Assembly: GCA_902786245.1 (NCBI GenBank)
Contig: CADABS010000012.1
Location: 1-44,446 of the forward strand
Reading direction: 5' to 3'
Length of the DNA stretch: 44,446 nt
Source of the DNA: an uncultured Erysipelotrichaceae bacterium
GTDB taxonomy: Bacteria; Bacillota_I; Bacilli_A; Erysipelotrichales; Erysipelotrichaceae
Position numbers and translations under genes: made by a program. The notes under the pieces are model-generated. The model searched no databases and was not told the DNA's origin. It saw nothing but the letters and a program-made list of their open reading frames with translations. This document shows, in pieces, positions 3,534 through 44,367 of this stretch; positions within the stretch are counted from its first letter, which is position 1, and the number at the start of each line of letters is the position of its first letter.

Positions 3534-6500
3534 TCAGGCATCGATCGTTGAGATTTTCAGCGTGATTTCTTCGAGGACATCGAGCAGAGCTCTGACTGTA
3601 TCCAGCGAAGTGAATATTGTCGTATTGTTTTCAACAGCGCACATACGGATCAGCGCACCGTCATTTGCTTCATCAGCGGACTGGATATTCCGCGTATTGA
3701 CGACATAGGCGATATGGCCCTGGCGGATCGCACCCGGAATATCATCCGGATCTTCACTGATCTTTTTGCGGACATGTGTACGGATGCCGTTTTTCTTCAG
3801 GAATTCCGCGGTGCCTTCGGTCGCTTCGATATTGAATCCGAGATCATAGAAGCGGCGGATCAGCGGCAGTGCTTCTTCCTTGTCATCATCTGCGATCGTT
3901 GCGAATACCGTACCGTAGTTGCGCAGGCTCATGCTGGAAGCCTGCAGGGCTTTATACAGCGCACGGTTGAGTCTGTCATCATAGCCGATGGCTTCACCGG
4001 TGGATTTCATTTCCGGAGAAAGATATGCATCGAGTCCCTTGATCTTGCTGAAGGAGAAGACCGGAACCTTGACATAGTATCTCTTCTTTTCATCCGGATA
4101 CAGATCGAACAGACCCTGTTCCTTGAGTGTCTTGCCGAGGATCACCTCTGTCGCAATATCTGCCAGTGGGTAACCGGTTGCCTTGGAAAGGAACGGTACC
4201 GTGCGGGATGAACGGGGATTGACCTCGATGACATAGACATTTTCATCTTTATCGACAATGAACTGAATGTTGTAGATGCCGATGATCCCGATACCGAGAC
4301 CCAGCTTCTTCGTATACTGCAGGATCGTTCCCTTGACCTTGTTTGAAATCGAGAATGCCGGATAGACCGAAATCGAGTCGCCGGAATGGATACCGGTTCG
4401 CTCAACCAGTTCCATGATGCCCGGGATGAATACATCTCTGCCGTCGCATACCGCATCGACTTCGACTTCTTTGCCGCTGATGTACTTATCGACCAGAACC
4501 GGTTTTTCTTCATCGATTTCAACGGCAGTCTTCAGATAATGACGGAGCTGTTCTTCGTTTCCGACGATCTGCATGGCTCGGCCGCCGAGGACGAAGGAAG
4601 GACGGACAAGAACCGGATAGCCGATCTCGGCTGCCGCCGCGATGCCGTCTTCGATCTTTGTGACAGCTCTTCCGGGAGGCTGGGGAATTGCCAGCTCTTC
4701 CAGTACTTTTTCAAAACTGTCACGGTTCTCAGCGCGTTCGATTGCTTCGACGCTGGTGCCGATGATATTGACGCCGCGCTTCATGATCGGTTCCGCCAGA
4801 TTGATCGCTGTCTGGCCGCCCAGGGATGCGATGACACCGACCGGGTTTTCAAACAGAACGACATTCATGACATCTTCCGGTGTCAGCGGTTCAAAGTACA
4901 GCTTATCTGCCGTTGTATAGTCGGTGGAAACTGTTTCCGGGTTGGAATTGATGATGATTTCTTCATATCCCGCTTTGCCGATGGTCTGTACGGCATGTAC
5001 GGTGGAATAGTCGAATTCGACACCCTGGCCGATACGGATCGGACCGGCACCGAGCACGACGATCTTCTTTTTGTCGGAAAGACGGGATTCGTTTTCACCG
5101 GTATAGGAAGAATAATGGTAGGCAATATACTTGCCGGAGTGCAGGGTATCGACCATGCGGAATACCGGGAACAGGTTGTTCTCTTTCCGCATATTGAATA
5201 CACAGAGTTCATCCGTGTCCCACAGTCTTGCGATGAATGCATCGCAGAAGCCCATTTTCTTCGCTTCCTTCAGCACTTCAAAGGAATTCTTATTGGCCGC
5301 AAGCTTGCGTTCCATGGCAACGATCTTGGCGATGGATTCAAGGAACAGCATCGTGATCATCGTGATTTCATGGATTCTGCTGAGCGGTACGTCTCTGCGG
5401 ATCAGTTCGGTTACCGCGAAGATATTGTCGAAGCGGAATTCCGATACATACTGCAGCAGTTCATCGGTGGTGAAGGCATCGAATTTTGCGGAATACAGGT
5501 GATTGACACCGGTTTCCAGGGAACGTACGGATTTGAGCATGCATTCTTCCAGATTGGAGCCGATGCCCATAACCTCGCCGGTCGCCTTCATCTGGGTGCC
5601 GAGCTGATTCGGTGTATTCGGGAACTTATCAAACGGGAAGCGCGGGAACTTGGCAACGATATAATCCAGACTCGGTTCTTTGTCTGCCGTTGTTCCGGCA
5701 ACTTCGATTTCTTCCAGGCCCATGCCCATGGCGATCTTCGCACTGACTCTGGCGATCGGATAGCCGGAAGCCTTGGAAGCCAGGGCACTGGAACGGGAAA
5801 CTCTCGGGTTGACTTCGATCAGGAAGTATTCGCTTGTTTCAGGGTGGAGAGCGAACTGGACGTTGCAGCCGCCTTCGATCTTCAGTTCCCGGATGATCCG
5901 GATAGCACTGTCGTTGAGCATCTTCAGATCATGGTCATTCAGGGACAGGATCGGCGCAACAACGATCGAGTCGCCGGTATGCACACCGACCGGATCGACG
6001 TTCTCCATGCCGCAGATCGTGATCGTCTTGTCATTGGAATCGCGCATGACTTCAAATTCGATTTCCTTGAAGCCCTTGACGCTCTTCTCGATCAGAACCT
6101 GATGCACCGGAGAAAGCTGGAAGGCATTTGTACCGATTTCAATCAGTTCTTCTTCGTTATAGGCAAAGCCGCCGCCGGTGCCGCCCAGGGTGAAGGCAGG
6201 ACGCAGAACGACCGGATAGCCGATATGCTTCGCTGCTTCTTTTGCCTCTTCAAGACTGTATGTGATTTCACTGGGAATGACCGGCTCGCCGATCTTCTGG
6301 CACATTTCCTTGAACAGCTGACGGTCTTCAGCCCGCTCAATGCTTTCTCTCGGTGTTCCGAGCAGTTCGACGCCGCATTCCTTCAGAACGCCTTTCTTAT
6401 CCAGCTGTACGGCAAGATTCAGACCGGTCTGGCCGCCGATGCCCGGAACGATTGCGTCCGGTCTTTCGTAGCGGAGGATCTTCGCGATGTACTCCAGCGT

Positions 6501-6707
6501 CAGCGGTTCCATATAGACTTTGTCCGCCATCTGTGTATCTGTCATAATTGTCGCAGGATTGGAATTGCAGAGGATTACCTGGTATCCCTCTTCTCTTAAG
6601 GCGATACAAGCCTGTGTGCCCGCATAATCGAATTCAGCTGCCTGACCGATGACGATGGGACCGGATCCGATAATCAGTACTTTTTTGATGTCTGTTCGTT
6701 TAGCCAT
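3534..6707 (-). CDS. carB: Carbamoyl-phosphate synthase large subunit
   Basis: A full-length 1057-residue CarB that makes carbamoyl phosphate from glutamine-derived ammonia, bicarbonate and two ATP, for pyrimidines and arginine. Two homologous ATP-grasp synthetase halves are present: the first opens with IIGSGPIVIGQAAEFDYAG, the second with VLGAGPIRIGQGVEFDYS. A C-terminal MGS-like allosteric domain (about residues 930-1057) follows. The start is fixed by a strong GAGGAGGG site (about 6718-6725). carA is not adjacent, so the small subunit must be encoded elsewhere. The upstream leader holds a promoter, a short translated-looking frame and a terminator, suggesting attenuation control. Confidence 0.97.
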   Translation of the reverse strand: MAKRTDIKKVLIIGSGPIVIGQAAEFDYAGTQACIALREEGYQVILCNSNPATIMTDTQMADKVYMEPLTLEYIAKILRYERPDAIVPGIGGQTGLNLAVQLDKKGVLKECGVELLGTPRESIERAEDRQLFKEMCQKIGEPVIPSEITYSLEEAKEAAKHIGYPVVLRPAFTLGGTGGGFAYNEEELIEIGTNAFQLSPVHQVLIEKSVKGFKEIEFEVMRDSNDKTITICGMENVDPVGVHTGDSIVVAPILSLNDHDLKMLNDSAIRIIRELKIEGGCNVQFALHPETSEYFLIEVNPRVSRSSALASKASGYPIARVSAKIAMGMGLEEIEVAGTTADKEPSLDYIVAKFPRFPFDKFPNTPNQLGTQMKATGEVMGIGSNLEECMLKSVRSLETGVNHLYSAKFDAFTTDELLQYVSEFRFDNIFAVTELIRRDVPLSRIHEITMITMLFLESIAKIVAMERKLAANKNSFEVLKEAKKMGFCDAFIARLWDTDELCVFNMRKENNLFPVFRMVDTLHSGKYIAYHYSSYTGENESRLSDKKKIVVLGAGPIRIGQGVEFDYSTVHAVQTIGKAGYEEIIINSNPETVSTDYTTADKLYFEPLTPEDVMNVVLFENPVGVIASLGGQTAINLAEPIMKRGVNIIGTSVEAIERAENRDSFEKVLEELAIPQPPGRAVTKIEDGIAAAAEIGYPVLVRPSFVLGGRAMQIVGNEEQLRHYLKTAVEIDEEKPVLVDKYISGKEVEVDAVCDGRDVFIPGIMELVERTGIHSGDSISVYPAFSISNKVKGTILQYTKKLGLGIGIIGIYNIQFIVDKDENVYVIEVNPRSSRTVPFLSKATGYPLADIATEVILGKTLKEQGLFDLYPDEKKRYYVKVPVFSFSKIKGLDAYLSPEMKSTGEAIGYDDRLNRALYKALQASSMSLRNYGTVFATIADDDKEEALPLIRRFYDLGFNIEATEGTAEFLKKNGIRTHVRKKISEDPDDIPGAIRQGHIAYVVNTRNIQSADEANDGALIRMCAVENNTTIFTSLDTVRALLDVLEEITLKISTIDA

Positions 6708-6743
6708 TGCGTTATTCCCTCCTCTTTCTGTATTTGATTCCTT

Positions 6744-6783
6744 AAAAAAACCGGTTCCTAAATGATAAACATTGAGAAACCGG
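6744..6783 (-). terminator. Terminator in the carB leader (attenuator)
   Basis: On the minus strand CCGGTTTC (6783-6776) pairs with GGAACCGG (6758-6751), with one G-U pair, across a 17-base U-rich loop. TTTTTTT (6750-6744) follows. It sits downstream of a good promoter and only 36 bases before carB, so it would end the carB transcript early unless disrupted. The leader reading frame runs through its 5' arm and stops at the edge of the 3' arm. Confidence 0.8.
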
Positions 6784-6835
6784 CAACTATCTCACTGGCA
6801 GAAACATATTCGATTGTTCTTCCCGCAATCATCAT
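6758..6835 (-). CDS. Candidate carB leader peptide
   Basis: A 25-codon frame starts at ATG 6835 (a second ATG follows immediately) behind AGGAG (6845-6841) with good spacing. It ends at TAG (6760-6758). Its last codons encode GFSMFII and cover the 5' arm and loop of the attenuator hairpin. A ribosome translating to the end would keep the terminator from folding. There is no run of Arg codons (a single Arg), which argues against simple arginine sensing. The U-rich stretch in the loop recalls the pyrBI leader of enteric bacteria. The frame itself is seen directly; the function is inferred. Confidence 0.5.
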   Translation of the reverse strand: MMIAGRTIEYVSASEIVAGFSMFII

Positions 6836-6882
6836 AAGCTCTCCTGTAACTGTCGGAAGGCAGTGCCTTCATGACTGCGTAA

Positions 6883-6911
6883 AAGTTACCATTTTCGGTT
6901 TGGGTTGTCAA
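6883..6911 (-). promoter_or_regulatory. Promoter of carB
   Basis: On the minus strand a consensus -35 TTGACA (6911-6906) lies 17 bases upstream of a weaker -10 TAACTT (6888-6883). A transcript from here would have a leader of about 170 bases before carB, containing the GAAGG/CCTTC hairpin, the leader frame and the attenuator. Confidence 0.65.
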
Positions 6912-6962
6912 TCCAATATTACAGGATTTGCATACATACGGAACCGGACAGGAAGACAACGA

Positions 6963-6987
6963 CAAACCGGATCACTGTGTGACCCGG
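6963..6987 (-). terminator. Weak terminator after the PfkB kinase gene
   Basis: CCGGGTCAC (6987-6979) pairs with GTGATCCGG (6975-6967) on the minus strand across ACA, with one G-U pair, followed only by TTTG. It lies 15 bases after the kinase stop. Given the short U-run, some read-through into the carB leader is possible. Confidence 0.55.
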
Positions 6988-7001
6988 CTGTTTCTTCTGT
7001 A

Positions 7002-8099
<1,098 letters not shown>

Positions 8100-20689: not shown

Positions 20690-21093
20690 ATGATCAGAAG
20701 TTGTTTTCTTTTCCTTCTCTGTATCTTTCTTGCGGCCTGCGGGGGAACGCCTGAACAGACATCTTTTTCTTCTGCGCCGCTGCAGGCAGCGGTCATCTCC
20801 GATCTGCATTATCAGCTTCCTGAGGGAGCTGTCAATACCATCATGCCTCTGTCTGCATACTGCGATGATTTCATGGATACCCTGACTGCCCAGATCATCG
20901 ATCTTCATCCGGATGTGCCGATCATGACCGGAGACAAGACCAATAACTGAAAGACCGCAGAAATGAAGAAATCACTGCAGATCCGTCCCTGGAAGCCCTG
21001 CTGGACGCATTGTCTTCAACCAATTACGGTCCCTGGATGCGCATGGCAGAGAAACCCGCGGATGCGTCTTATCTTCTGATCGGTTCTCCGTAA
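20690..21093 (+). pseudogene. Remnant of a second metallophosphoesterase lipoprotein
   Basis: ATG 20690 starts a lipoprotein signal peptide (FLAACGG lipobox), then AVISDLHY and MTGDKTNN, the first two metal motifs of the calcineurin-like fold. It then stops at 20948-20950. From about 20950 to TAA 21093 another frame encodes NYGPWMRMAEKPADASYLL, which resembles the C-terminus of the neighbouring intact gene (AYGYWRQYAGDSFWYLYML). The central catalytic part (roughly 250 codons) is missing and the two ends are joined out of frame. The 3' end overlaps the convergent c-di-GMP gene by 25 bases. Confidence 0.75.
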
Positions 21094-23297
21094 ATACGGC
21101 AGCCGCTGCTGTCTGACTGCTTCAGGGCGGCCAGGGCCGTATCGGCATCCTGGAAGATATCTCCCTGCGGGTTCTCACGGTCAAAGAAGGCAACGCCGAC
21201 GCGCAGTGAAACCGGGAAACCCTGTCCTTCCGGATCCTGCAGAACCCGGTTGATCGTCTCGACTTTTTCATAGACAAGATCCTGCATGGAACAGGTGATT
21301 CTGGTCAGGATGATGACAAATTCATCTTCTTTCAGACGGCAGATGCTGTCAACGGAACGGAAATTGTCCCGCAGTACTTCAGCGGTCCGTACGACCGCGC
21401 TGACGGCACCGTCTTTGCCGTACCTGCGCTGAATATCATCGTATCCGGCGATATCCGCAATCATAACAGCGATATGATCATGATCGGAATCATGGAAGAG
21501 AATATCAAAGGCGCTGTGATTGTACAGACCGGTCAGAGGGTCATGCATTGCATCATAGGTATATCTGTCGCGGGAAATGCGGGTGCCGGATTGACGGCTG
21601 ACTTCCTGCTTTTTTTCTTCTTCGTACCGGCTGCGCATATAGGCTTCGAATTCATCCGCCGGCAGCGGTCTGGAGAAGTAGTAGCCCTGTACATAATCGC
21701 AGCCCATGGTCTTCAGCGTGAACATCTGTTCGGCGGTTTCCACCCCCTCGGCGATCGTCGGCACAGACAGCGCTTCTGCCAGTCCGATCACGACTTCCAG
21801 AAGCCTCGTATCCTTGCGTTCTCTGAAGGCGCTGCGGATAAACTGCATATCGAGTTTCAGCGCGTCGATCGGCAGAGAAGAAAGCATGTTCAAGGATGAA
21901 TAGCCGGTACCGAAGTCATCCATTTCGATCCGGAATCCTTTCTGACGCAGACGGCTGACCATGTCAATCATCTGGCGGGAATTTTCCGTATAGGCGGATT
22001 CCGTGATTTCCAGGATCAGGTCGCTGTGGTCCAGGCCGTATTCCTGCACGATCTCTTCCAGATGTTCGCTCAGGTCTTCATCATACATGTCGATGCGCGA
22101 TACATTCACCGATACCGGCACGGATCTGCCTGCTGTCTGTTTCCATTCGCGGATCTGTTTTGCGGTCTGCCGCCAGACCCAGGAGTCCAGCTGACGGATC
22201 ATTCCGTTGTCTTCAAACAGCGGAATGAATACACCGGGACTGATCATTCCGAGTTCCGGGTGTTTCCAGCGCACCAGTGCCTCGGCACCGGCAAATACCG
22301 GTTCCGGCGGACGGACATCGAATTTGGGCTGATAGTATACCGTAAACTGGTTTTCGCGGATTGCCGTATTGAATCCTTCCAGCAGCTGCTCGGCATACAG
22401 TTCTTCCTGGTGCAGGGAATCGTCATACCAGGCAATGGACTTTCCATAATTGGAACGCAGCGTATCCGTCGCAGACTTGGCCCTGTCGAAGCGCCGTTCA
22501 ATATCAAGGGTTTTATCCGCGCAGGGATAGATACCCATCCGCAGCCGGATCCGCCTGTCGCTGCCGAAGGAGGCAGTGATATTCCCGAGGAGCGCCTCAT
22601 AGTCATCGCGGTGCGGGCAGTAGATCAGATAGGTATCTGCTTCCCGGCGGCAGATGATCGCATCTGACTCCTGCAGCGATTCCTTCAGTTTCTGGGCAAT
22701 GGACTTCAGCAGTTCATCGCCGTATGCCTTTCCATAGCGTTCATTGATGATATGGAAATGCGAGATGTCCACGACCACGGCATCTGTATCGGTATTTCTG
22801 TGATACTGATCGAACTGGGAAGCATACCGGTAGAAGTATTCCCGGTTGTACAGGCCGGTCAGTGTATCCCGCTCTGTCGAGAGGATGATATCCCTGTCCT
22901 CCGAGAGTTCAATCGTCCGCAGCACCCGGGCCAGAACGACCTTCTGGGGAGGATACGGCTTGGGAATAAAATCGATTGCTCCGGCTGTCAGGCATTCCAC
23001 TTCAGCCTCGCGGTCTGCGGTCATGACAATGACCGGTATGCCTGCGGTCTGTTCACTGGATTTGATCTGTTTCAGAAGTGCAAGACCGTGCATATCGGGC
23101 AGATTCAGATCGAGCAGGATCAGACTGACGGGTTCGCTGATCTTTTCCAGTGCCTGGCTGCCTGTTTCGGCAAACTCCACCTCATATGTCTCCGCCAGCA
23201 TCATCCGCAGAAGCTGCTGGTTCACTGCTTCGTCTTCGACGACCAGGATTCGTCTTCTGCCGTTTCCGGAATGAAATTTGAGATTTGTTTCCGCCAT
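21069..23297 (-). CDS. REC-GGDEF-EAL-GGDEF c-di-GMP phosphodiesterase
   Basis: A soluble 742-residue response regulator. The receiver domain (about 15-130) has phospho-acceptor Asp63 in LLDLNLPD and Lys113. GGDEF-1 (about 143-290) is degenerate: its signature reads RREAD. The EAL domain (about 300-555) keeps the expected catalytic residues: Glu339 (EAL), Asn398, Glu430, Asp460-Asp461 (DDFG), Lys481, Glu517 and Gln537. It should hydrolyse c-di-GMP. GGDEF-2 (about 585-735) is also degenerate (KEDEF). AAGGGTG precedes the start. It is the last gene of the permease-cyclase/kinase operon, 27 bases after the hybrid kinase, which is the obvious phosphodonor. No terminator is visible downstream. Confidence 0.9.
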   Translation of the reverse strand: MAETNLKFHSGNGRRRILVVEDEAVNQQLLRMMLAETYEVEFAETGSQALEKISEPVSLILLDLNLPDMHGLALLKQIKSSEQTAGIPVIVMTADREAEVECLTAGAIDFIPKPYPPQKVVLARVLRTIELSEDRDIILSTERDTLTGLYNREYFYRYASQFDQYHRNTDTDAVVVDISHFHIINERYGKAYGDELLKSIAQKLKESLQESDAIICRREADTYLIYCPHRDDYEALLGNITASFGSDRRIRLRMGIYPCADKTLDIERRFDRAKSATDTLRSNYGKSIAWYDDSLHQEELYAEQLLEGFNTAIRENQFTVYYQPKFDVRPPEPVFAGAEALVRWKHPELGMISPGVFIPLFEDNGMIRQLDSWVWRQTAKQIREWKQTAGRSVPVSVNVSRIDMYDEDLSEHLEEIVQEYGLDHSDLILEITESAYTENSRQMIDMVSRLRQKGFRIEMDDFGTGYSSLNMLSSLPIDALKLDMQFIRSAFRERKDTRLLEVVIGLAEALSVPTIAEGVETAEQMFTLKTMGCDYVQGYYFSRPLPADEFEAYMRSRYEEEKKQEVSRQSGTRISRDRYTYDAMHDPLTGLYNHSAFDILFHDSDHDHIAVMIADIAGYDDIQRRYGKDGAVSAVVRTAEVLRDNFRSVDSICRLKEDEFVIILTRITCSMQDLVYEKVETINRVLQDPEGQGFPVSLRVGVAFFDRENPQGDIFQDADTALAALKQSDSSGCRIYGEPIRR

Positions 23298-23324: not shown

Positions 23325-26300
23325 TCAGTCATTGATCAGTTCCTGCAGTGTTCTGCAGAGCAGATCAGGATCGATCGGTTTGCTTAAATGCGCGTTCAGT
23401 CCGGCCTGCATGCTGCGCTGTACGTCTTCATCAAACGCATTGGCAGTCAGGGCTATGATGGGAACAGACAATGCGTCTTCCTTCCCGCATGCACGGATCT
23501 TTGCGGATGCCTCAAGGCCGTCCATGACCGGCATCCTCATATCCATCAGTATTGCATCATAGGTTCCCGGGGGATTGTTTACAAATGCATCGACGGCTTC
23601 TGCACCATTGACGGCAAGGTCTGTCTGCATGCCTTTTGCGCTCAACAGCATCCGCATGATTTCCGCATTGACAGCGATATCTTCCGCCAGAAGGATCCTT
23701 CTGCCGCTGAGTTCTGCTGTTTTCTGCGTGCGTTTATCAGGCCTGCGTCCGTATGCCTCTGCATATGCATCCATGACCCTGGCTGAATCCAGCGGTTTTG
23801 AGACAAATCCGTCCACGCCGGCTGTCCGGGCTGTTTCTTCGATTTCATCCCAGCTGTATGATGTCAGGATGATGATTGCGGATTCATCCCCGATGACCGA
23901 ACGGATCTGACGGGCTGTTTCCACGCCGTCCATCTCCGGCATCTTCCAGTCGGTCAGGATCAGATCATATGCTTCGCTTCTGGCTTTGTGCATACGGACC
24001 ATTTCCAGTCCTTCTTTTCCGGAAGCGGCGGTCTGGCAGGCGATGCCGGCATTTCCGAATATGATCTGCGCATGTTCGCAGGCGACCGGGTCATCATCGA
24101 TGACAAGCACGCTGAGATGGGAAGGCAGGCTGCTGTCTTCCTGTCTGTCTCTGCGGCCGCTGACTCCCAGTGTCACGGCAACCGTGAATACGGACCCCTT
24201 CCCCTTTTCGCTTTCCACTTCGATCGTACCGTTCATCAGTTCAACGATACTGCGGGTGATTGGCATGCCAAGACCCGTGCTTCCGTATCTGCTGGTGGAG
24301 GAAGAATGCTCCTGGGAGAAGGATTCAAAGATATGCGGCAGGAATTCACGGCTCATGCCGATGCCTGTATCCGCAATGACAAAGCGCAGCGTCGAGCGGC
24401 CCGAGAAGCGGTTGAGTTCTTCGATCGTAAAATCGATGTTTCCGCCGGACGGTGTGAACTTGACCGCATTGCCGAGAATATTGATCATGACCTGGCGCAG
24501 CTTCATTTCATCGCCGATGTAGTATTCGTCGATCCTTCCGGCTGTGCGGCAGGTATAGTGCAGTCCCTTTTCCTTACACTGACCGCCGATGATCGTATTG
24601 ACCTGTTCCAGCAGTCTGGTGAAGGAGAATTCCTCATTGCGGATGACCATCCTTCCGGATTCGATTCTCGACATATCCAGAATATCATTGATAATACTGA
24701 GAAGATGCCGGGCCGACGTTCCGATCCGCTCCAGATATCCTCTGGTTCTATCGGATATATCTTCTTCGCTGAGAGCGATGCTGTTGAGACCGATGATGGC
24801 ATTCATCGGTGTACGGATCTCATGGCTCATGTTCGAAAGGAACGCAGTCTTTGCGATATTGGCCTGTTCCGCTGCCTTCAGCGCATCCGTCAGAGCCTGG
24901 CTTTCGGCCAGATTCTTTCTTGTTTCGATATCGACATCGGTAATGCACGCACCGACGGAATGGACCAGATGATCGTCTCTGTCTTCCGGATGGCGGACCC
25001 CTGCGAACTTGATCATTTCATAGAATTCGCTGCCGTTGCGCCGGACCAGATACCGGTAGGAAACAACCAGTTCTGTACTCAGCTTGGTTCGCAGATTCTG
25101 CGGCTGAATGAATGACAGAAAGTCATCCAGATACTGTTCGGTAATATATTTGCGGCCGTATTCACTGAATTCATGCAGGTAGCGGAAATGTTCGCCTGTC
25201 CGCAATCCGTCCGCATCGGGCAGACACTGGTAACAGACGCCTTCATCGGTATCCAGATCGATATAGTATACGCTGCGGTAATCCGAGGCCAGAGCGGTGA
25301 TCAGCTTTGTCTGCTCTGCCTGTTCCCGTTCTTTCTGCAGCAGTTCTTCCTGCAGTGCGATCCGGTGTTCGAGTTCCTGCTGCTTGACTCTTGCCTCTGT
25401 TTCCGCGGCTTTTGCCCGGCTCATTTCCGTTACGTCCACGCACATGCCCAGTGTGCACAGCCGGCCGTTACTGTCGGTGAATTTCAGTTTGGTCGTCTGC
25501 AGATTCCGGATATGTCCTGCCGCATCCGGTACATCTTCAAAGAAGATATACGGTTCTTCCATCGCCAGTGCCTTCCGGTCATCTTCTGTAAAATGACGGG
25601 CGGTTTCCGGATCGAAAATATCAAAATCCGTCTTCCCGACGACGCCTTCCGGTGTTTCTTTGTGTGCGTATTCCGCAAATGCCTGGTTGCATGCCAGATA
25701 TCTGCCGGTCTCTGCGTCTTTGGAAAAACTCATCGCCGGCATATTCGAAAGCAGCGTCGCTACAGAACCCATCAGATCTGCCAGCTTGGCAGCGGATTCG
25801 ATCTGCTCGATCAGACGGCTGTTTTCTTCTTTCTGTTTCTTTGCGTCCCGCAGTGCCTGCTGCATCTTCTGCCCGGTCCGCACATCGTCATCGACGTCTT
25901 TGAAACCGCAGACGACACCCATTTTTCCGCCGGGCATGCTGACCCGGGCAAATTCAATGCGGAAATATCTCTCGCTGCCGTCTTCCATGATCCGCAGATA
26001 GTTGATATTGAACTGCGGTTTTTCCTGCAGGCGGCTGACGATGCGTCCGATGGCGAGTTCCTCCTGCAGGCGCTGTCTGTCTGCAGGTGCCACCATCGTC
26101 TGAATGTAATATTCCTTTGCCTGGGAATACTTCATGCGCTCGAGGGCGCTTCTGATCGGCGCCGCATGGATGGATGATCCGGCTATATCTCCCCGGTACA
26201 GAGAAAAACTCTCGCTTTCCACGTCATTGATCAGCCATACGGTATGATATGCCTTGCTCAGTGCTTCAATGACAGCCTGGCGGACTGCCATGTCCCTCTC

Positions 26301-26717
26301 CATCTGTTTCCGCTTATCTGTAATATCGGAAATAAATACGTAATAGATGCCGCCGTAGGCCTCTGTTTCCGTATAGTGGCCGTAGTCATCCACCCAGCGG
26401 ACGGCTCCGTCTTTGCGGATGATGCGGTATTCGACATAATCCACGCCTTCATCATCTGTACTGATCTGTTTGCCGATGGACTCCTTGACGGCATCATAAT
26501 CTTCAGGATGCACCATGCCTCTGAACGTCCAGCCGGTCAGACTGCGCAGTTCTTCGGTATCATGGCAGCCGAAGATCCCGGCCGCTGCCTGGTTGGCATA
26601 GATCAGTTCTTCCGGTTCTTCCGCTCTGTATATGAAGAAACCGCCCGGCATATGCCTGCCGAGTTCCTCAACGATTTCCATCGTTCTGTCATTGAGTTCA
26701 AACTTTTTTCCGAACAT
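23325..26717 (-). CDS. Soluble multi-PAS hybrid histidine kinase with two receiver domains
   Basis: An 1130-residue protein with no signal peptide or membrane helix. The N-terminal half holds PAS/PAC modules at about 20-135, 150-280 and 320-435, and a PAS-like stretch at about 475-600, with a coiled coil at about 435-470. HisKA carries His632 in NMSHEIRTP. The ATPase domain has N750 (NILGNAVKF), DTGIG and TGLGM. Two receivers follow, with Asp923 (LTDWKMPEMDG) and Asp1059 (LMDMRMPVMDG). No Hpt domain is present, so phosphotransfer beyond the receivers needs another protein, or direct transfer to the partner REC protein. AGGAG precedes the start, 14 bases after the permease-cyclase gene. Confidence 0.92.
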   Translation of the reverse strand: MFGKKFELNDRTMEIVEELGRHMPGGFFIYRAEEPEELIYANQAAAGIFGCHDTEELRSLTGWTFRGMVHPEDYDAVKESIGKQISTDDEGVDYVEYRIIRKDGAVRWVDDYGHYTETEAYGGIYYVFISDITDKRKQMERDMAVRQAVIEALSKAYHTVWLINDVESESFSLYRGDIAGSSIHAAPIRSALERMKYSQAKEYYIQTMVAPADRQRLQEELAIGRIVSRLQEKPQFNINYLRIMEDGSERYFRIEFARVSMPGGKMGVVCGFKDVDDDVRTGQKMQQALRDAKKQKEENSRLIEQIESAAKLADLMGSVATLLSNMPAMSFSKDAETGRYLACNQAFAEYAHKETPEGVVGKTDFDIFDPETARHFTEDDRKALAMEEPYIFFEDVPDAAGHIRNLQTTKLKFTDSNGRLCTLGMCVDVTEMSRAKAAETEARVKQQELEHRIALQEELLQKEREQAEQTKLITALASDYRSVYYIDLDTDEGVCYQCLPDADGLRTGEHFRYLHEFSEYGRKYITEQYLDDFLSFIQPQNLRTKLSTELVVSYRYLVRRNGSEFYEMIKFAGVRHPEDRDDHLVHSVGACITDVDIETRKNLAESQALTDALKAAEQANIAKTAFLSNMSHEIRTPMNAIIGLNSIALSEEDISDRTRGYLERIGTSARHLLSIINDILDMSRIESGRMVIRNEEFSFTRLLEQVNTIIGGQCKEKGLHYTCRTAGRIDEYYIGDEMKLRQVMINILGNAVKFTPSGGNIDFTIEELNRFSGRSTLRFVIADTGIGMSREFLPHIFESFSQEHSSSTSRYGSTGLGMPITRSIVELMNGTIEVESEKGKGSVFTVAVTLGVSGRRDRQEDSSLPSHLSVLVIDDDPVACEHAQIIFGNAGIACQTAASGKEGLEMVRMHKARSEAYDLILTDWKMPEMDGVETARQIRSVIGDESAIIILTSYSWDEIEETARTAGVDGFVSKPLDSARVMDAYAEAYGRRPDKRTQKTAELSGRRILLAEDIAVNAEIMRMLLSAKGMQTDLAVNGAEAVDAFVNNPPGTYDAILMDMRMPVMDGLEASAKIRACGKEDALSVPIIALTANAFDEDVQRSMQAGLNAHLSKPIDPDLLCRTLQELIND

Positions 26718-26731
26718 ACGGCGCTCCTGTT

Positions 26732-28930
26732 CTATCTGGTGATTGCTCCAGCATCCTTCAGCTGTTTTTTGGCTGCATACATTCCGCTGTCCGCCCGCTC
26801 AAATACACTGTGCCACTGTGTGTCTTTTCCCGGTATGTATTCGGCGATGCCGCAGGCTACGACAACCTGTCCGGACGCAATGTTCTGCAGCGAGATTTCC
26901 ATCAGCTGCTCTTTGATCTGTTCTCTGTTTTCATAGTCTCTGCCGCTGAGCACAACAGCGAATTCGTCTCCGCCGATGCGGTATACCGGGCTGTGCTGGA
27001 ACAGTTCGCAGATCATGCGGGCAGCTGCGCGGATATACTCATCTCCGGCTTTGTGTCCGTATGTATCGTTGATATGCTTCAGTCCGTTGAGATCGCATAC
27101 GGCAGCGGCCATCGCCGGTGCGCTTCCGGCAAGGATCATCGCGTTGATCTCGCTTTCTTTTTCCGTATATGCATGCTTGCTTTTGACACCCGTCAGAGGA
27201 TCTGTATTGGCCTTGTTTCTGACGATGCCGAGTTCTGTTTCGCTTTCTGCTGCCCGTCTGTTCATGATGGAGTAGTTGTTCAGCAGCACGCCGAGCGATA
27301 TGCCGAACATGGCAACGACAACAGCGATACTGCGGGCATTGGTCATCCTTAAGGTATCCAGTTCCTGCAGGATCAGTTTCTCGCCTTCCGCTGTAAAGCC
27401 GGCTTCTGCGTAATAGTCCTGGATATGATTCATCGCATCCGCGGTGACCCGCATGGTCGACTGGCTCATCCATACCAGTGAAACAAACAGCACCAGCGAC
27501 AGCAGCACGATCCATACGACGATGGATCTGCCGAACCGTCTGTCTTTGTCTTTCCGCAGAATGCTGTGAAAGAACAGAAATCCCAGGATCGACCATATGA
27601 CAAACAGGAAATAGGATTCCGATTCGAGCGATCCGCTGGTAAACAGATTCGGAACCAGAAGCCAGATACCGAACACAAGCATGATCACGATTCCTGCCGC
27701 AGCCGGGAAAACCTGATTTCTGTCGCCGTAAGTCCCTGCCTTTTTCAAAGCGCAGGCGCTGACATATCCGTAGATCAGTACCGCACCGAGCGTTGTCACA
27801 TCCACGATCCATCCGACGGCCGTTCTGCCAAGCAGCGGTACCGCACAGGACAGCAGGAAGATCAGCATGACTGCATTATGGGGTATTCTTCTGTCATTGA
27901 GTTCAGCGTACCGGTCCGGAATGATCCCATCTTCCGCAAGGGCATAGAACAGTCGGCTCAGTGCCGTGATATTGCCGATCAGGCTGGTGATGACCAGAGC
28001 CAGCAGCGCTGCCATCAGAATATTGACACCGAAGTTTCCCAGCCAGGTATAGGCGGCATAAAACGGCGGAAGCGCCTCAATGCCGCTGAGCTGGCTGAGA
28101 TTCCGAATGTACGAAAGCCAGCTGTCAAACTGTCCGGGATATGCACTGATGGAAAGCAGGATGATTGCCGCATACAGAACGGCTGAGGTCACTACCCCCG
28201 CAGCCAGGATCCTGCCTGTCTTTTTCCGGGGAAAGTCAAATTCCTCAACGGCATGGGAAATATTCTCGAATCCGATGAATGCCCATGGCGACATCATTGC
28301 GATCCGAACAACCTGTGAAATGACGGGTGTATCCGGTATGAAAGCAGGATCAAAAGCTCTGTCCGTACGGAAAAGAGCCGCTGCCGTACAGAACAGTATG
28401 GCTGCAGTAAAGAATGCACACATGGCTGTCATCATCCTGGCGGGCAGATGCCGGTGCCTTGCACACAGCAGTGTACTCAGCAGAATCGCCCCTGCCGTCA
28501 GCAGGACTTCGGCAAGATATACCGGGTAGCCGAATATCGTAAACAGGTATCCTGTTTCAAAGAAATCGCCGATGAAGTATCTGGCAAACAGCGGCAGAGA
28601 TGTCGCATTTGCCCACAGCATGGCCAGATATGTCAGAGTCAGAAACCATGCGGTCAGAAAGCCGTGGTCATGTCCGAAGGTTTCCTTTGAATACGCATAG
28701 ACACCGCCTGCGTCCGGGCAGCAATTGATCATATAGGCATAGCTGCGGCTGATGATCAGCATAATCACCGTTCCCGCCGCAAGACCGAGAAGGCATCCGC
28801 CCGGTCCTGCCTGGGAAAGATATGCACTGCTGGTAATGACCAGCGATCCCCAGCCGATACTTGTGCCCAGAGAAAGCGCCCATGCGCCGGCAGGTGTCAG
28901 ATATGGCTGCAGTTTTCTTTTATCACTCAT
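26732..28930 (-). CDS. APC amino-acid permease fused to GGDEF diguanylate cyclase
   Basis: One uninterrupted frame of 732 residues. Residues about 10-455 form an APC-superfamily permease with about twelve helices, including the helix-1 substrate loop (SIGWGSLV) and GFENISHAVEEFD. Two further helices (about 470-488 and 533-550) flank an outside loop of about 45 residues. A cytosolic GGDEF domain (about 573-725) follows with DPLTG, DLNGLKHIND and an intact RIGGDEF (653-657); no RxxD inhibitory site is visible. It should make c-di-GMP and may sense or transport amino acids. A frame extends to 28954, but ATG 28930 has AGGA seven bases upstream. It is the first gene of the operon. Confidence 0.9.
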   Translation of the reverse strand: MSDKRKLQPYLTPAGAWALSLGTSIGWGSLVITSSAYLSQAGPGGCLLGLAAGTVIMLIISRSYAYMINCCPDAGGVYAYSKETFGHDHGFLTAWFLTLTYLAMLWANATSLPLFARYFIGDFFETGYLFTIFGYPVYLAEVLLTAGAILLSTLLCARHRHLPARMMTAMCAFFTAAILFCTAAALFRTDRAFDPAFIPDTPVISQVVRIAMMSPWAFIGFENISHAVEEFDFPRKKTGRILAAGVVTSAVLYAAIILLSISAYPGQFDSWLSYIRNLSQLSGIEALPPFYAAYTWLGNFGVNILMAALLALVITSLIGNITALSRLFYALAEDGIIPDRYAELNDRRIPHNAVMLIFLLSCAVPLLGRTAVGWIVDVTTLGAVLIYGYVSACALKKAGTYGDRNQVFPAAAGIVIMLVFGIWLLVPNLFTSGSLESESYFLFVIWSILGFLFFHSILRKDKDRRFGRSIVVWIVLLSLVLFVSLVWMSQSTMRVTADAMNHIQDYYAEAGFTAEGEKLILQELDTLRMTNARSIAVVVAMFGISLGVLLNNYSIMNRRAAESETELGIVRNKANTDPLTGVKSKHAYTEKESEINAMILAGSAPAMAAAVCDLNGLKHINDTYGHKAGDEYIRAAARMICELFQHSPVYRIGGDEFAVVLSGRDYENREQIKEQLMEISLQNIASGQVVVACGIAEYIPGKDTQWHSVFERADSGMYAAKKQLKDAGAITR

Positions 28931-28970
28931 ACAATTATCCTGATAAATAATCATTCCGTCTGTTTCTTCT

Positions 28971-28976: not shown

Positions 28977-29067
28977 TCGTAAAACGCATCGGTTTTCCTT
29001 CCTGTATTTCATGCCTGCGCGTCATATATCATTCTGCAGTGCATGCCTTTTCAATACGGCAGCCGGT

Positions 29068-29099
29068 AAAAAAATGAGAGCCGGGTGATACCGGTTCTC
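29068..29099 (-). terminator. Terminator after C69 dipeptidase gene
   Basis: On the minus strand GAGAACCGG (29099-29091) pairs with CCGGCTCTC (29084-29076), with one mismatch, around a six-base loop, followed by a T-run (29074-29068). It overlaps the dipeptidase stop codon and insulates the c-di-GMP operon from upstream read-through. Confidence 0.8.
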
Positions 29100-30546
29100 A
29101 TGCATCGCTTCGGGCAAAGCCGTTTTTCATTTTCAGACTGACCGCAAGCAGTACTTTATCCAGCAGGTCATCTGTCTCTTTTCTGACAAAGGATATGATC
29201 TTTTCATTCACCGCAGCCGCATCAAAGCTGCCTGCATCTGTGAATGCTCTGTCTGCTTCTTTGATCATGCGGTGTGTTTCGCTCAGAACCCTGTCCTGAT
29301 AGCGCTCGATCATATTTGCACAAAGACCAAACTGACTGTCCGCAAGGGCTGCGATGATCCGGTTTGCCCAGTAGAAATTCTCCGTCGTCACCTGCGCGGT
29401 TGTATTTGAAATATATGCCGGAGATATACTGGTCTGCGCATAGAGCGGTACAAGCGTATTGAACACATTGGATCCGAAAGCTACCCATTCAACCGTTCTG
29501 ATTTCTTCCGGCAGATACGGACGGATCTGTACAAGCGAAAGGAAGTTGTTGCGGTTGATGCCGATGGGTCTGCAGGATCCTTTCAGCAGCGGATCGGCAT
29601 GTCTGCTGTAGGGATCATAATCCGTTCCCTGATAATGGCTGGAGAGTACATACTTCACATCTTCGACCGTGATCTTATGTTCCGGTCGGCGGCACCAGGG
29701 AATATCATCCGATTCCGGTATGTACCGGTTATCTGAAGGATTGAAATACTTCTGGATGAACCATGCCCGGGGCGTGTTGTATACATGATCGGCATCTGAA
29801 TGGGAACCGAATGCCCTTCTGGCATTGAATACGCCGTCCAGGGAAAGATCGAGACAATTGTCCCGGATGAATTCCCGCAGATCTTCGGAGCACATGTGCT
29901 CTTTCTGTACAGAGAACGCATCCTCGAGATCAAACGTATCAATGCCGAAGCTGTTTGGCGCTGCGACATAGCAGTCATCCGGTACGCGTCTTGCAATCCA
30001 GTGATGGCCGCCGATGGTTTCCAGCCACCATACTTCATCCACATCCTGAAAGGCAATGCCGTTCATTTCATAGGTACCGTATTCCTTTAAGAGAGAACCC
30101 AGGCGCTGTACGCCTTCTCTGGCAGAATGGATGTAGGGAAGGACAAGGGTGACCATATCTTCTTCACCGATGCCGCCGGGTATTTCATCTGTCTGCTTCA
30201 CCTGGGATACGGTTTTTGTCAGCGGATCTGCTGAGAGGACCCGGTCATTGGAAGTGATCGTCTCTGTCGCAGTCATTGAGACATTGCAGGCATTGACCCC
30301 GGCAGCGCCCCAGATGCCTTCGTCATCCACGGCATTGGGCATGGATGTATAGCGCATCGGGACCTGCGGCAGCGGGATGGTCTGCTTTGAGAGGACGGAT
30401 GTATACAGACGGGGCTGTTCATCCGGATGAACGACTCTGAATTTCTTGGCACAGAAACCGGTGGATCCGGAGTCTTCATTCCGGGCGGTCATCGTCGATC
30501 CGTCATAGGTAATATTCTTTCCTGCAAGCAATGTTGTACAAGGCAT
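29098..30546 (-). CDS. pepD: C69 family dipeptidase
   Basis: A 482-residue N-terminal nucleophile peptidase of family C69 (PepD). Cys3 in MPCTTLLAGK would become the N-terminal nucleophile after removal of the first residues. TARNEDSG and the later GGHHWIARRVPDD and NSFGI segments are typical. It cleaves dipeptides in the cytosol, releasing amino acids. AAGGG lies about 12 bases upstream, and no alternative in-frame start is available. It sits just upstream of, but is transcriptionally separated from, the amino-acid permease-cyclase operon. Confidence 0.88.
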   Translation of the reverse strand: MPCTTLLAGKNITYDGSTMTARNEDSGSTGFCAKKFRVVHPDEQPRLYTSVLSKQTIPLPQVPMRYTSMPNAVDDEGIWGAAGVNACNVSMTATETITSNDRVLSADPLTKTVSQVKQTDEIPGGIGEEDMVTLVLPYIHSAREGVQRLGSLLKEYGTYEMNGIAFQDVDEVWWLETIGGHHWIARRVPDDCYVAAPNSFGIDTFDLEDAFSVQKEHMCSEDLREFIRDNCLDLSLDGVFNARRAFGSHSDADHVYNTPRAWFIQKYFNPSDNRYIPESDDIPWCRRPEHKITVEDVKYVLSSHYQGTDYDPYSRHADPLLKGSCRPIGINRNNFLSLVQIRPYLPEEIRTVEWVAFGSNVFNTLVPLYAQTSISPAYISNTTAQVTTENFYWANRIIAALADSQFGLCANMIERYQDRVLSETHRMIKEADRAFTDAGSFDAAAVNEKIISFVRKETDDLLDKVLLAVSLKMKNGFARSDA

Positions 30547-30690: not shown

Positions 30691-33204
30691 TTACTCTGCG
30701 TCTGCTGTAACAGCCTTGGCAGCTGTACGGCCGGATACGAAGATTTCGACAATTGCGTTTCCGCCCAGACGGTTGCCGCCGTGGATACCGCCGGTGACTT
30801 CGCCTGCCGCATACAGACCCGGGATGACATTTCCGTCTGTATCCAGTACATGACGGTCGACATCGACCTTCAGACCGCCCATTGTATGGTGGGTCGAAGG
30901 AGCCATCAGACGGACTCTGAGATCAACGCCATCCAGTGTGTATGTTTCCGGCTTATATTTGCCGTTTTCATCCTTTTCACAGTTTCCGATCGTTCTGGAA
31001 GCTGCTGTCTTCTTGACATCCGGATAATCCGCTGCAGCGGTACCGGCCATGACGGCCTGGTCATAATCCTCGATCGTCTGTCTGACCGTTGCAGGATCCG
31101 CTTCTACGCCGATTTCCTTGAACAGGTCGCCGAGCTTGTCGATCGTTGTTGTGTAGTATCTGCCTGCGAAGTCTTCATCACCCAGCTGCATCGGTGCCGG
31201 AAGCATCTGTTCCTTGTTGTAGATTTCAACGAAGACGCCCTTGGTGCCGTTGACTTCCATACCGTTTCTGAATTCTGCCAGAGACAGAACATCGCGTTCG
31301 GATGTTTCATCAACGAAACGCTTGCCGGTTGTCGGGTTGATCCATACAGCATAGTTGCCTGCACCGAATGCCAGGTTGCCGTTGTCGACCCAGGAGATCG
31401 GCATCAGCTGTGTGAAGTTCATGCCGGTTGTAGCCGCGCCTGCTTCTTCCGCCATCTTGATGCCGTCACCGACCAGAGAACTGCGGTTTGTCGTCTTGGT
31501 GCTCTTTGTCAGATATTCGCTGTCCCAGTACTGGTTGTATTCGAGAACTTTATCAATGTTTGCCGCAAATCCGCCGGTTGTCAGGATGACACCCTTGTTT
31601 GCATGCACCGTCACTTCTGTTCCGTCATACTGTACACCCTTGACGCCGGTAACTCTGCCGTCTTCCGTGATCAGAGATTCTGCCTTTGTTCTCAGCATGA
31701 TCTTATTCTGGTCTGCGGTGGAAGATGTCTTGAGCAGTGTGTTCTTCGGAGCCATGAAATATGTGCCCCATCTGCCGCCATATGTTTCGCCGTCGATCTC
31801 CGCACCGGCAAATTCGTTTTCTCTGTACCAGAGAGCGCCGATCAGCGTCTGCTGGTTTTCAACAAACTTGCCGCCCTGTTCTTCCAGCCAGGGTTTGAGA
31901 TCCTGACCGTCGGTGATGAACTGGGATACCAGATCATAGTCGCCGTACATCCATTCCGACATGTCTGCGGTCGGACGCAGTCCGCCGTAATATGTCTGGA
32001 AGATATGCAGGTTCAGCGTCGAGAACAGTGTTACTTCTGTAGCGCCTGCTTCGATCTTGGGTTCAGCCCATGCCAGATACGGAGCGATTTCCTTCTTCAG
32101 AGCCTGCAGAGTCGGCAGATATTCCGCATGGACACCGTGCTTCGCGAGTTCCGCTGTATCGCCGGCTACGAATTCATGATCCTTGTAGTATGCTTCATCA
32201 AACGGTTCTTCCGACCAGCCGGCAATGATCTTCAGTTCATCGACCGTGCTTGCCGGAGCCATCTGCTTGTCCCATTCGGTTCCGTCATACTTTGTGCCCT
32301 TTGTCGCATCCGGGTTGCTTTCTTCCCAGCACAGATACGGCATGACAGACTGATACTGTCCGCCGGATACCAGTGTATTTCCGCCGATTTCAGCGTTTTC
32401 TTCCATGACGAGAACGGTATTGCCGTCCTGGGCAGCCTGGGCTGCAGCAGCCATACCGGCACCGCCGGCACCGACGACGACAACATCATATGTCTCTTCG
32501 ATCGGATCGCCCGCTGTTACTTCAACAGTATTCTTCTTGAATGTATCCAGACTGGAAACAGATGCCTGTTCAGCAGCGTTGTTGACCGCCATCTTCAGCG
32601 CACCGGAAGAGAATGTCGCACCGGATACAGAGTCAACGCCTGTACCGTTTGCCGCAATGATCTGTTCCGGCAGGATTTCGAAGGCGACATCGCCGACATG
32701 TTCTGTTTCTGCCGAAGATGTAACTTCGATCTTTTCGATCTTGTCTTCTGCAAATGTGACATCGACTGTCACAGGTCCGTTATAGCCTTCACCCGTACCG
32801 GTATATGTACCGGCTGTGAATGTCAGCGGTCCTTCTTCTTCGGAAGCAGCGCCGGATGCCTTTGCCAGTGCGTCGTTGACTGCCTGGATCAGCGCGTCAG
32901 ATGTCTCGGTAGCGTTGGTGACTGTGTCGACTTCCGCCTTGTTCGCCGAGACCATCGCATCAGGCATCGAGTCGAACGGCTGGTCGTAGTCAAAGTTTTC
33001 TTCCACGATTTCAATCGTTTCGATCGCGTCCGCGGAAACTGTCACTTCAACCGTGACCTTGTGCCCGAGCTTTTCGGATGTTCCTGTGCCTGTGTAGGTG
33101 CCTGCGGTAAACTTGCCGCCTGCCGGAGCGGTTTCAGAGCTGCATCCGGCAGCAGAAAGGACCAGCACAAAGCAAAGAAACGCTTTCGCAAAATACTTCT
33201 GCAT
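30691..33204 (-). CDS. Secreted flavinylated FAD-dependent reductase with two FMN-binding domains
   Basis: An 837-residue lipoprotein (lipobox SAAGC, Cys21). Two FMN-binding domains follow, with flavinylation motifs DTVTNAT (93-99) and DSVSGAT (191-197), where ApbE would attach FMN to the Thr. The rest (about 238-837) is a fumarate reductase/flavocytochrome c-type FAD domain with VVVGAGGAGMAA and, near the end, THHTMGG and GGNRLGGNA, which carry substrate-site His and Arg residues. It probably reduces an external enoate-type acceptor (fumarate, urocanate or similar). No haem motif is present. ApbE and a membrane electron donor are not in the window. GAGGGGG precedes the start. Confidence 0.92.
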   Translation of the reverse strand: MQKYFAKAFLCFVLVLSAAGCSSETAPAGGKFTAGTYTGTGTSEKLGHKVTVEVTVSADAIETIEIVEENFDYDQPFDSMPDAMVSANKAEVDTVTNATETSDALIQAVNDALAKASGAASEEEGPLTFTAGTYTGTGEGYNGPVTVDVTFAEDKIEKIEVTSSAETEHVGDVAFEILPEQIIAANGTGVDSVSGATFSSGALKMAVNNAAEQASVSSLDTFKKNTVEVTAGDPIEETYDVVVVGAGGAGMAAAAQAAQDGNTVLVMEENAEIGGNTLVSGGQYQSVMPYLCWEESNPDATKGTKYDGTEWDKQMAPASTVDELKIIAGWSEEPFDEAYYKDHEFVAGDTAELAKHGVHAEYLPTLQALKKEIAPYLAWAEPKIEAGATEVTLFSTLNLHIFQTYYGGLRPTADMSEWMYGDYDLVSQFITDGQDLKPWLEEQGGKFVENQQTLIGALWYRENEFAGAEIDGETYGGRWGTYFMAPKNTLLKTSSTADQNKIMLRTKAESLITEDGRVTGVKGVQYDGTEVTVHANKGVILTTGGFAANIDKVLEYNQYWDSEYLTKSTKTTNRSSLVGDGIKMAEEAGAATTGMNFTQLMPISWVDNGNLAFGAGNYAVWINPTTGKRFVDETSERDVLSLAEFRNGMEVNGTKGVFVEIYNKEQMLPAPMQLGDEDFAGRYYTTTIDKLGDLFKEIGVEADPATVRQTIEDYDQAVMAGTAAADYPDVKKTAASRTIGNCEKDENGKYKPETYTLDGVDLRVRLMAPSTHHTMGGLKVDVDRHVLDTDGNVIPGLYAAGEVTGGIHGGNRLGGNAIVEIFVSGRTAAKAVTADAE

Positions 33205-42744: not shown

Positions 42745-44367
42745 TCATGACTGCTGTTTTCCTCTGTATTCAAAACACATCATCGTCAGATCATCGAACT
42801 GATCTTCATCTCCGGCAAAGGCATCAACGGCTTCATGCATCTTTTCAAGAACACCGCGGGGATCCAGTGACAGACCGCTGTTGAGGGTCGTGATCATCCG
42901 TTCTTCCCCGAACAGCTGCCTATCCTTGTCTGTCGCCTCCGGCAGACCGTCGGTATAGATGAACAGGCGGGTGCCGGGTTCGAGCTGCAGCTCATAATCC
43001 CGGTAGACGGTATCTTCCATGGCACCGATGACCAGACCGTGTCTGTCTTTCAGGATTTCATACTGTCCGCCGGGTTTCCGGATGACCGGATACTCATGAC
43101 CGGCATTGGACGCTGTCATGCGGCCGCTGGATATTTCCAGAATGCCCAGCCATACCGTCACGAACATCTGTTCCGGATTGTCGGCGCAGATCGCGCGGTT
43201 GGCGGCTTCGAGGATGGCACTCGGCGAATGCATGATATGCGCGTTGTTGGCAATGATGATCTTGGAGGCCATCATAAACAGTGAAGCGGGAATTCCCTTG
43301 CCGCTGACATCTGCCATGACCAGGCACAGATGATCTTCATCCAGCAGGATGAAATCATAGAAATCGCCGCCGACTTCCGTGGCCGGATCCATGACTGCGT
43401 AGATATCGAATTCATTTCTGTCCGGAAAGGCCGGGAATCTGCTCGGCAGCATGCTCGACTGGATCTTTGCGGCAAGACTGAGCTCGGTTTCGATCCTTTC
43501 TTTCTCGGCGGTAATATTCTGGATATCATTGATATACATTTTCATGCGCTCGGTCAGCGAACTGAACGAGGCTGCGAGTTTCTGCGTTTCATCCTGTCCC
43601 GATTTCTCATCCCAGACAAAGTCGAGGTTATTCCCTTCGATCTCGGATACTTTCCGGGTAAGCTTGCGGATCGGTTCGACGATGCGGTTGGAGACTTTCA
43701 GGGATCTCTGCAGCACGAGGATGACGGTTGCGGCTAGTACCAGGAAAATGATGACGACAGCCGACCGCAGATTTGCGGCAGTGTCTTTCTCAGCGTCGGT
43801 ACTGATCTCATACAGAGACGTCCGCAGTTCATAGACGGCTTCTTCCACTTCTTCCTTGGACAGGAAAATCAGGAAAGACCAGCCTGCTTCCTTCATCGGT
43901 GCATATGCGGCATAGTACATGACACCGTCGATTTCAATGACGGCGATGTCCGATTCTCCGGCAGCTGCTTTTTCCAGGATCTGCGTCAGAACCCGGTTCT
44001 GTTCCGTGCCCAGTCCCGAGCCGGTGTCGCCGGATGCCAGGGTTCCGGAGGTGAACGTTGTGAAAATGACTTCCCCTTTTGCGTTGATGATGCACGCATC
44101 GCCGGTTTCACCGATATCTGCGCTCTTGACGAGATTCTCGATGTCATTCAGGTAGATGCCGCCGCCGGCAACACCCATCAGTTCTCCGTCTTTTCTGACC
44201 GGCACACCGCACATGATGCCGAGCAGCGATGTATGGATATCCTTTGTGACCGATGAGATATAGACATCGCCGGTCTCTTTTGCGCCGATGTACCATGGCC
44301 GTTTTTTCGCATCCAGCGGAATCAGGACGCCGTCTTTATCATATTTATTAAAGCCGTTTTTGCACAT
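42745..44367 (-). CDS. dCACHE-HAMP-SpoIIE (PP2C) phosphatase, 5'-truncated
   Basis: A 540-residue frame containing the distal part of a double-CACHE sensor (RPWYIGAKETG, then GVAGGGIYLNDIENLV), one membrane helix (about 200-222), a HAMP domain (about 223-275), a coiled linker and a SpoIIE/RsbU-type PP2C phosphatase (about 300-535: EVGGDFYDF, MADVSGKGIPASL, SNAGHEYP, TDGLPEA, DDLTMM). It would dephosphorylate an anti-sigma-factor antagonist or similar protein. The expected N-terminal helix and first CACHE half are missing. In-frame stops lie just upstream of ATG 44367 and there is no ribosome site, so the gene is truncated or disrupted. Confidence 0.8.
   Translation of the reverse strand: MCKNGFNKYDKDGVLIPLDAKKRPWYIGAKETGDVYISSVTKDIHTSLLGIMCGVPVRKDGELMGVAGGGIYLNDIENLVKSADIGETGDACIINAKGEVIFTTFTSGTLASGDTGSGLGTEQNRVLTQILEKAAAGESDIAVIEIDGVMYYAAYAPMKEAGWSFLIFLSKEEVEEAVYELRTSLYEISTDAEKDTAANLRSAVVIIFLVLAATVILVLQRSLKVSNRIVEPIRKLTRKVSEIEGNNLDFVWDEKSGQDETQKLAASFSSLTERMKMYINDIQNITAEKERIETELSLAAKIQSSMLPSRFPAFPDRNEFDIYAVMDPATEVGGDFYDFILLDEDHLCLVMADVSGKGIPASLFMMASKIIIANNAHIMHSPSAILEAANRAICADNPEQMFVTVWLGILEISSGRMTASNAGHEYPVIRKPGGQYEILKDRHGLVIGAMEDTVYRDYELQLEPGTRLFIYTDGLPEATDKDRQLFGEERMITTLNSGLSLDPRGVLEKMHEAVDAFAGDEDQFDDLTMMCFEYRGKQQS

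Follow-up and report, generated by a model that had tools for sequence, protein, structure and literature searches.

Can an amino acid permease serve as the receptor of a diguanylate cyclase? The question arises from a 44,446-nucleotide stretch of an uncultured Erysipelotrichaceae genome (contig CADABS010000012.1; the whole stretch analyzed is here called the window), in which a gene on the minus strand (positions 26732 to 28930) encodes an APC permease, a two-helix membrane hairpin, and a GGDEF domain in one uninterrupted frame of 732 amino acids. We estimate a probability of roughly two in three that its product is a membrane receptor derived from an APC permease, with the permease acting as the sensor of a transceptor that governs c-di-GMP turnover.

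Permease, hairpin, and GGDEF domain in a single chain

The frame is open over 740 codons on the minus strand (26732 to 28954), and an alternative upstream ATG at 28954 would give a 740-amino-acid product; the ATG at 28930, with AGGA 7 bases upstream, is the better start. Residues 16 to 429 matched the Pfam model AA_permease_2 (E = 4.7e-31; 108.6 bits against a curated cutoff of 27, covering profile positions 6 to 404 of 427), and residues 574 to 724 matched GGDEF (E = 5.6e-23, far above its curated cutoff). The membrane part was matched by AA_permease models alone. An AlphaFold2 model built on a 67-row family alignment (mean pLDDT, 89.4) comprised an APC fold, two more long helices, and a GGDEF fold. 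An earlier note, made from the sequence alone, had described this frame as a whole APC permease with two extra helices and an intact GGDEF domain and had called for a search with the two domain models; both domains were found above their Pfam cutoffs, and frame and predicted fold agree with the reading.

The 12-helix permease core (27563 to 28894, minus strand; residues 13 to 456) superimposed on y+LAT1 with a Z score of 39.5 and on AdiC with 39.0 (~420 residues, 16% identity). Its modeled fold is LeuT type, with helix breaks at about residues 24 to 27 (TM1) and 217 to 221 (TM6). GkApcT (6f34), AdiC (5j4i), and the LAT/CAT permeases (8xyj) share this fold and the TM1/TM6 break at 14 to 20% identity to the fusion but have neither hairpin nor signaling domain. 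The TM13-outer loop-TM14 hairpin follows (27272 to 27535, minus strand; residues 466 to 553), its predicted helices spanning residues 469 to 510 and 515 to 575 around an outer loop some 43 residues long (~488 to 530). The second helix continues unbroken as far as the GGDEF domain, so that a cytoplasmic signaling helix (27212 to 27271, minus strand; residues 554 to 573) is continuous with TM14.

The putative binding pocket is well conserved. In the 67 rows, G26-W27-G28 at the TM1 break and W216...E222 in TM6 were invariant and P215-W216-A217-F218 at the TM6 break was conserved; almost every member kept GWG(S/A) and PWA(F/Y)xGFE, which resemble the motifs of stand-alone permeases. From the motif, we take the invariant glutamate E222 to occupy the position of AdiC E208. 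Retention of these motifs favors a working binding site. Mean column identity in the permease (0.67) and the GGDEF domain (0.66) exceeded that in the outer loop (0.36).

The GGDEF domain (26756 to 27211, minus strand; residues 574 to 725) contains CDLNGLKHIND and RIGGDEF, the GGDEF motif itself being residues 653 to 657. D613 and N621 were invariant and D630 was at least 90% conserved in the 67 rows; by correspondence to PleD, these are presumably the metal-binding Asp and substrate-binding Asn/Asp. GGDEF was kept in 82 of 84 family rows, and one of the two rows in which it was not read (L154) has a frame of 594 residues, possibly truncated. The product-binding RxxD motif occurred in none of the 82 rows with a readable motif, the position reading FQHS in the window protein, so that the lack of an RxxD site described in the earlier note is family-wide and the window protein falls outside the product-inhibited subtype of cyclase. 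These motifs bear on a reversed direction of signaling, in which the cytoplasmic domain would sense GTP or c-di-GMP and gate transport, as c-di-AMP does with KimA. KimA (8b70), an APC-type transporter bound to c-di-AMP, was indeed among the structural matches; however, with GGDEF intact, RxxD absent from 82 of 82 rows, and other members carrying a kinase or an HD-GYP enzyme, both of them outputs, we regard such reverse coupling as quite improbable.

A putative receptor module with five outputs

Querying species genomes, one for each species, by means of the permease-plus-hairpin alignment returned 592 relatives; among the best 80 of the 592, nearly all were fused. No relatives were found in the viral contigs scanned. 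The closest relatives within the window's own genus, in genomes G026 and G031, carry the same fusion at 55 to 56% identity, and others in the genus extend beyond the GGDEF domain. By their titles, most of the records are bins from the ruminant gut, with assignments (the naming of bins being fallible) to Lachnospiraceae, Erysipelotrichaceae (including "Solobacterium"), Clostridia, Coriobacteria, Treponema, and Chloroflexi.

A profile of the hairpin alone was found in 16 of 295 genomes of the window's order, in 14 of 299 genomes of the family of the isolate Lachnospiraceae AC2029, and in 1 of 392 genomes of a broad phylum sample, the one being the window's own genome. Among the matches listed in these three surveys, none had a hairpin lacking an output domain; all frames were at least 589 amino acids long, and the shortest (589) begins 110 bases from a contig end. 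The fusion had been called unusual beforehand, which describes its rarity in the order and the phylum sample but not its recurrence as a family in ruminant-gut lineages. Among the findings that the earlier note had named as speaking against a fusion were a frameshift in the read and absence of the architecture from all relatives. Most relatives are metagenome bins and one frame is split (at L106), so an assembly or frameshift artifact joining two genes might be suspected; against this, more than 70 independent loci are fused, including one on a 3.86-Mb contig of the sequenced isolate AC2029 (L056). We rejected a frameshift or chimeric contig on the number of independent intact frames, and the chance of such an artifact is negligible.

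The same permease-plus-hairpin receptor was joined to five outputs: GGDEF, GGDEF-REC-GGDEF(degenerate)-EAL, histidine kinase-REC (REC single or double, PAS present or absent), HD-GYP, and PAS-GGDEF. The 110 rows of a tree built on the permease core only, leaving out hairpin and linker, divided into 51, 33, 23, 2, and 1, respectively. PAS-GGDEF is represented by L151 and HD-GYP by L063 (5959 to 8322) and by L109, which ends at a contig end and was assigned to its class from its sequence. All fused classes had the hairpin, which the aligned stand-alone permeases L040 and L041 lack. On this quick tree, 46 of whose 106 inner branches were open, output labels were strongly clustered and also required no fewer than 10 changes where 4 would be the minimum, which argues that the receptor recombined with outputs repeatedly. 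On this sequence evidence, the permease-plus-hairpin is an exchangeable module joined to different outputs again and again. The HD-GYP fusion at L063 suggests that the receptor may also drive c-di-GMP breakdown. At L106 (5914 to 10217), the long form reads as two overlapping frames past the hairpin, through either a read frameshift or a real split.

A receptor half common to enzymes for signaling, not uptake, might have given up transport altogether, leaving a permease fold that acts as a pure ligand sensor. Yeast Ssy1 is such a protein, and a stand-alone permease paralogue in the same genome (contig C6, about 5387 to 6820) could do the transport. This is a subcase of our main reading minus the transport step. 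The invariance of the unwound TM1/TM6 motifs and of the glutamate at the AdiC E208 position, with conservation extending over the whole permease, weighs against it, and we consider it possible but hold it tentatively.

Linker phase and the proposed coupling

The linker was measured in a total of 84 proteins, from the last residue of TM14, in most cases Tyr or His, to the aspartate that comes first in the GGDEF domain; L049 and L107 were left out as not anchorable. By script, the distance was 24 residues in 54 proteins and 17 in 29, with no other value; in L154, whose motif the script missed, it was 24 as counted by eye. The two classes differ by exactly one heptad and require three changes on the permease-core tree. 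In the 24-residue helix, positions 0, 3, 7, 14, 17, and 21 are recurrently hydrophobic, a heptad or coiled-coil pattern, and heptad periodicity of linkers is known in other sensor kinases and cyclases. In directly fused kinases lacking PAS, the distance to the phospho-histidine motif was 32 in 17 of 17 measured. In contrast, the distance from the conserved W487 to the end of TM14 took 11 values between 59 and 71. A fixed linker beside a free outer loop points to selection on the helix phase between TM14 and the enzyme. At L049 (4017 to 6344), an additional stretch lies between the two halves of the hairpin.

A fixed phase is expected if the receptor turns or shifts the helix but would be needed by a constitutive dimer too, and is thus support rather than proof. 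A working permease might simply be tethered to a constitutive or otherwise regulated cyclase, the two being colocalized with no allosteric coupling. Local c-di-GMP pools are an accepted idea, and an effect of a ligand is a presumed part of our main reading. However, a linker held to 17 or 24 residues next to an outer loop that is free to differ in length, the predicted continuation of TM14 into the linker helix, and a dedicated hairpin always placed between permease and enzyme make mere tethering unlikely.

The receptor is our preferred reading, and the mechanism proposed for it builds on what the sequences and models show: the frame is fused, the folds are predicted, the motifs are intact, the sequence is conserved, outputs have been swapped, linkers keep fixed lengths, and the gene order fits. 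The permease pocket would bind a solute, either extracellular or in transit, that is probably an amino acid or an amine related to one, and the resulting conformational change would shift the TM13-TM14 hairpin. Since TM14 is predicted to continue as one helix into the signaling helix, the phase of the latter could decide whether two GGDEF domains meet and c-di-GMP is made; dimerization and the direction of the signal are presumed here. A transceptor had been suggested from the sequence beforehand, and one receptor with five outputs, a heptad-quantized linker, and retained TM1/TM6 pocket motifs lend that suggestion weight, with ligand binding, transport, and cyclase activity still its conjectural parts. 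In a more general form, to which we give even odds, the APC permease and TM13-TM14 hairpin constitute an undescribed, exchangeable nutrient-receptor module in which LeuT-fold alternating access would set the phase of the signaling helix and so control phosphorylation or the synthesis or breakdown of c-di-GMP, the cyclase and the phosphodiesterase sharing a single chain in some species.

Transporter-kinase fusions such as CbrA, cited as precedent in the earlier note, do exist: CbrA and CrbS are SLC5-STAC histidine kinases, and CbrA takes up histidine (PMC7096432, PMC13022988, PMC5715377). Like the fusion, they hold a whole transporter and a signaling enzyme in one chain with a dedicated element between them, but they use SLC5, a soluble four-helix STAC domain, and a kinase output where the window protein has an APC permease, a membrane hairpin, and a diguanylate cyclase. 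Membership in the CbrA family was rejected, as there is no SLC5 domain and only ~20 residues, forming one helix and no STAC bundle, lie between TM14 and GGDEF. The ammonium sensor histidine kinase Ks-Amt5 (PMC5764959; reviewed in PMC10433425) likewise heads a signaling enzyme with a transporter fold as sensor, but differs in its Amt/Rh fold, kinase output, and ammonium ligand; the ammonium transporter domain PF00909 had no Pfam match in the window protein, which is thus not an Amt-type sensor. In PDB entries 8qj3, 8qj4, and 8qpf, named ammonium transporter by their depositors, chain residues 412 to 625 matched the TM14-GGDEF part of our family profile, with no match to its permease and TM13 part. 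These chains combine a transporter with a C-terminal GGDEF domain, as the fusion does, and so provide precedent for a carrier with GGDEF. The 5TMR, or S-component-fold, receptors recombine a transporter-like membrane fold with GGDEF, EAL, PAS, and kinase outputs (PMC11109136) but are not full permeases; we dropped this identity for the fusion, whose fold is that of a full APC/LeuT permease.

None of CbrA, Ks-Amt5, and the ammonium transporter-GGDEF proteins has an APC receptor, and we found no description of an APC-GGDEF fusion, or of an APC permease in a receptor-fusion role, in the open-licence literature. What distinguishes the family from known fusions is its use of a membrane hairpin as coupler, its variety of outputs, and the single-chain cyclase and phosphodiesterase. 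How a carrier reports ligand or turnover to its enzyme is open even for CbrA (PMC13022988), and the same carrier and hairpin on five outputs with fixed linkers makes that question experimentally tractable. The family is likely a nutrient input to c-di-GMP signaling in ruminant-gut bacteria.

Neighboring genes

Two signaling genes follow the fusion gene on the minus strand, each preceded by a ribosome-binding-site-like sequence: a PAS-PAS-HisKA-HATPase-REC-REC hybrid kinase 14 bases downstream (23325 to 26717) and, 27 bases after it, a REC-GGDEF(degenerate)-EAL-GGDEF(degenerate) protein (21069 to 23297). The PAS_4-kinase-REC-REC part of the kinase has the architecture of the module that L035 and L036 carry fused to this receptor, and the REC-GGDEF(degenerate)-EAL part of the second protein is fused in chain to receptor-GGDEF in 33 of 110 relatives. 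Fusion, kinase, and REC-EAL genes also occur together, in varying order, in L029/L064, L055, L059, L066, and L074. Because relatives fuse the same modules to the receptor, the gene arrangement suggests that the separate kinase and REC-EAL proteins act with the fusion protein. The EAL domain retains catalytic-looking EALVRW, NVSR, EITES, and DDFGTG motifs (read by eye) and both GGDEF copies are degenerate, so the REC-EAL protein is probably a phosphodiesterase opposing the fusion's cyclase. It would break c-di-GMP down and is probably a phosphorylation target of the neighboring hybrid kinase.

Upstream, a terminator-like hairpin with a T run (29067 to 29101, minus strand) follows a C69 dipeptidase gene and hints weakly that the fusion gene begins its own transcription unit, as 25 of 200 shuffles folded equally well. 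No metabolic gene consistently adjoined the fusion and no pathway was enriched among 86 neighbor genes surveyed, so the ligand is not indicated by gene context. The window's fusion has a C69 peptidase as its neighbor and that of L028 an M20 peptidase, which is suggestive at best as a ligand clue. The genome encodes further GGDEF and EAL proteins; no c-di-GMP effector of the PilZ or MshEN type was found in it, which, like the lack of a consistent metabolic neighbor, counts against the preferred reading. An Rfam search of the window gave no match, and in a c-di-GMP-I riboswitch search the controls themselves gave no signal.

Other features were seen near members of the family. Directly upstream of the APC-PAS-kinase fusion in L035 lies a gene for a 1,135-amino-acid SBP_bac_3 (extracellular solute-binding)-PAS-GGDEF protein (4228 to 7632), and the same pair occurs in L036. 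An EAL frame with an in-frame TAA (L160; genome G000, contig C33, 15326 to 16018) is perhaps a decaying phosphodiesterase gene. A SpoIIE protein with an ATPase domain is encoded just downstream of the cassette in L029 (12259 to 14370). Within the window, a dCache-HAMP-SpoIIE phosphatase (42745 to 44367) lies near fumarase and malic enzyme genes, and a flavoprotein (30691 to 33204) whose lipoprotein-like N terminus accompanies two FMN-binding domains and an FAD domain resembling that of fumarate reductase is possibly an extracellular reductase.
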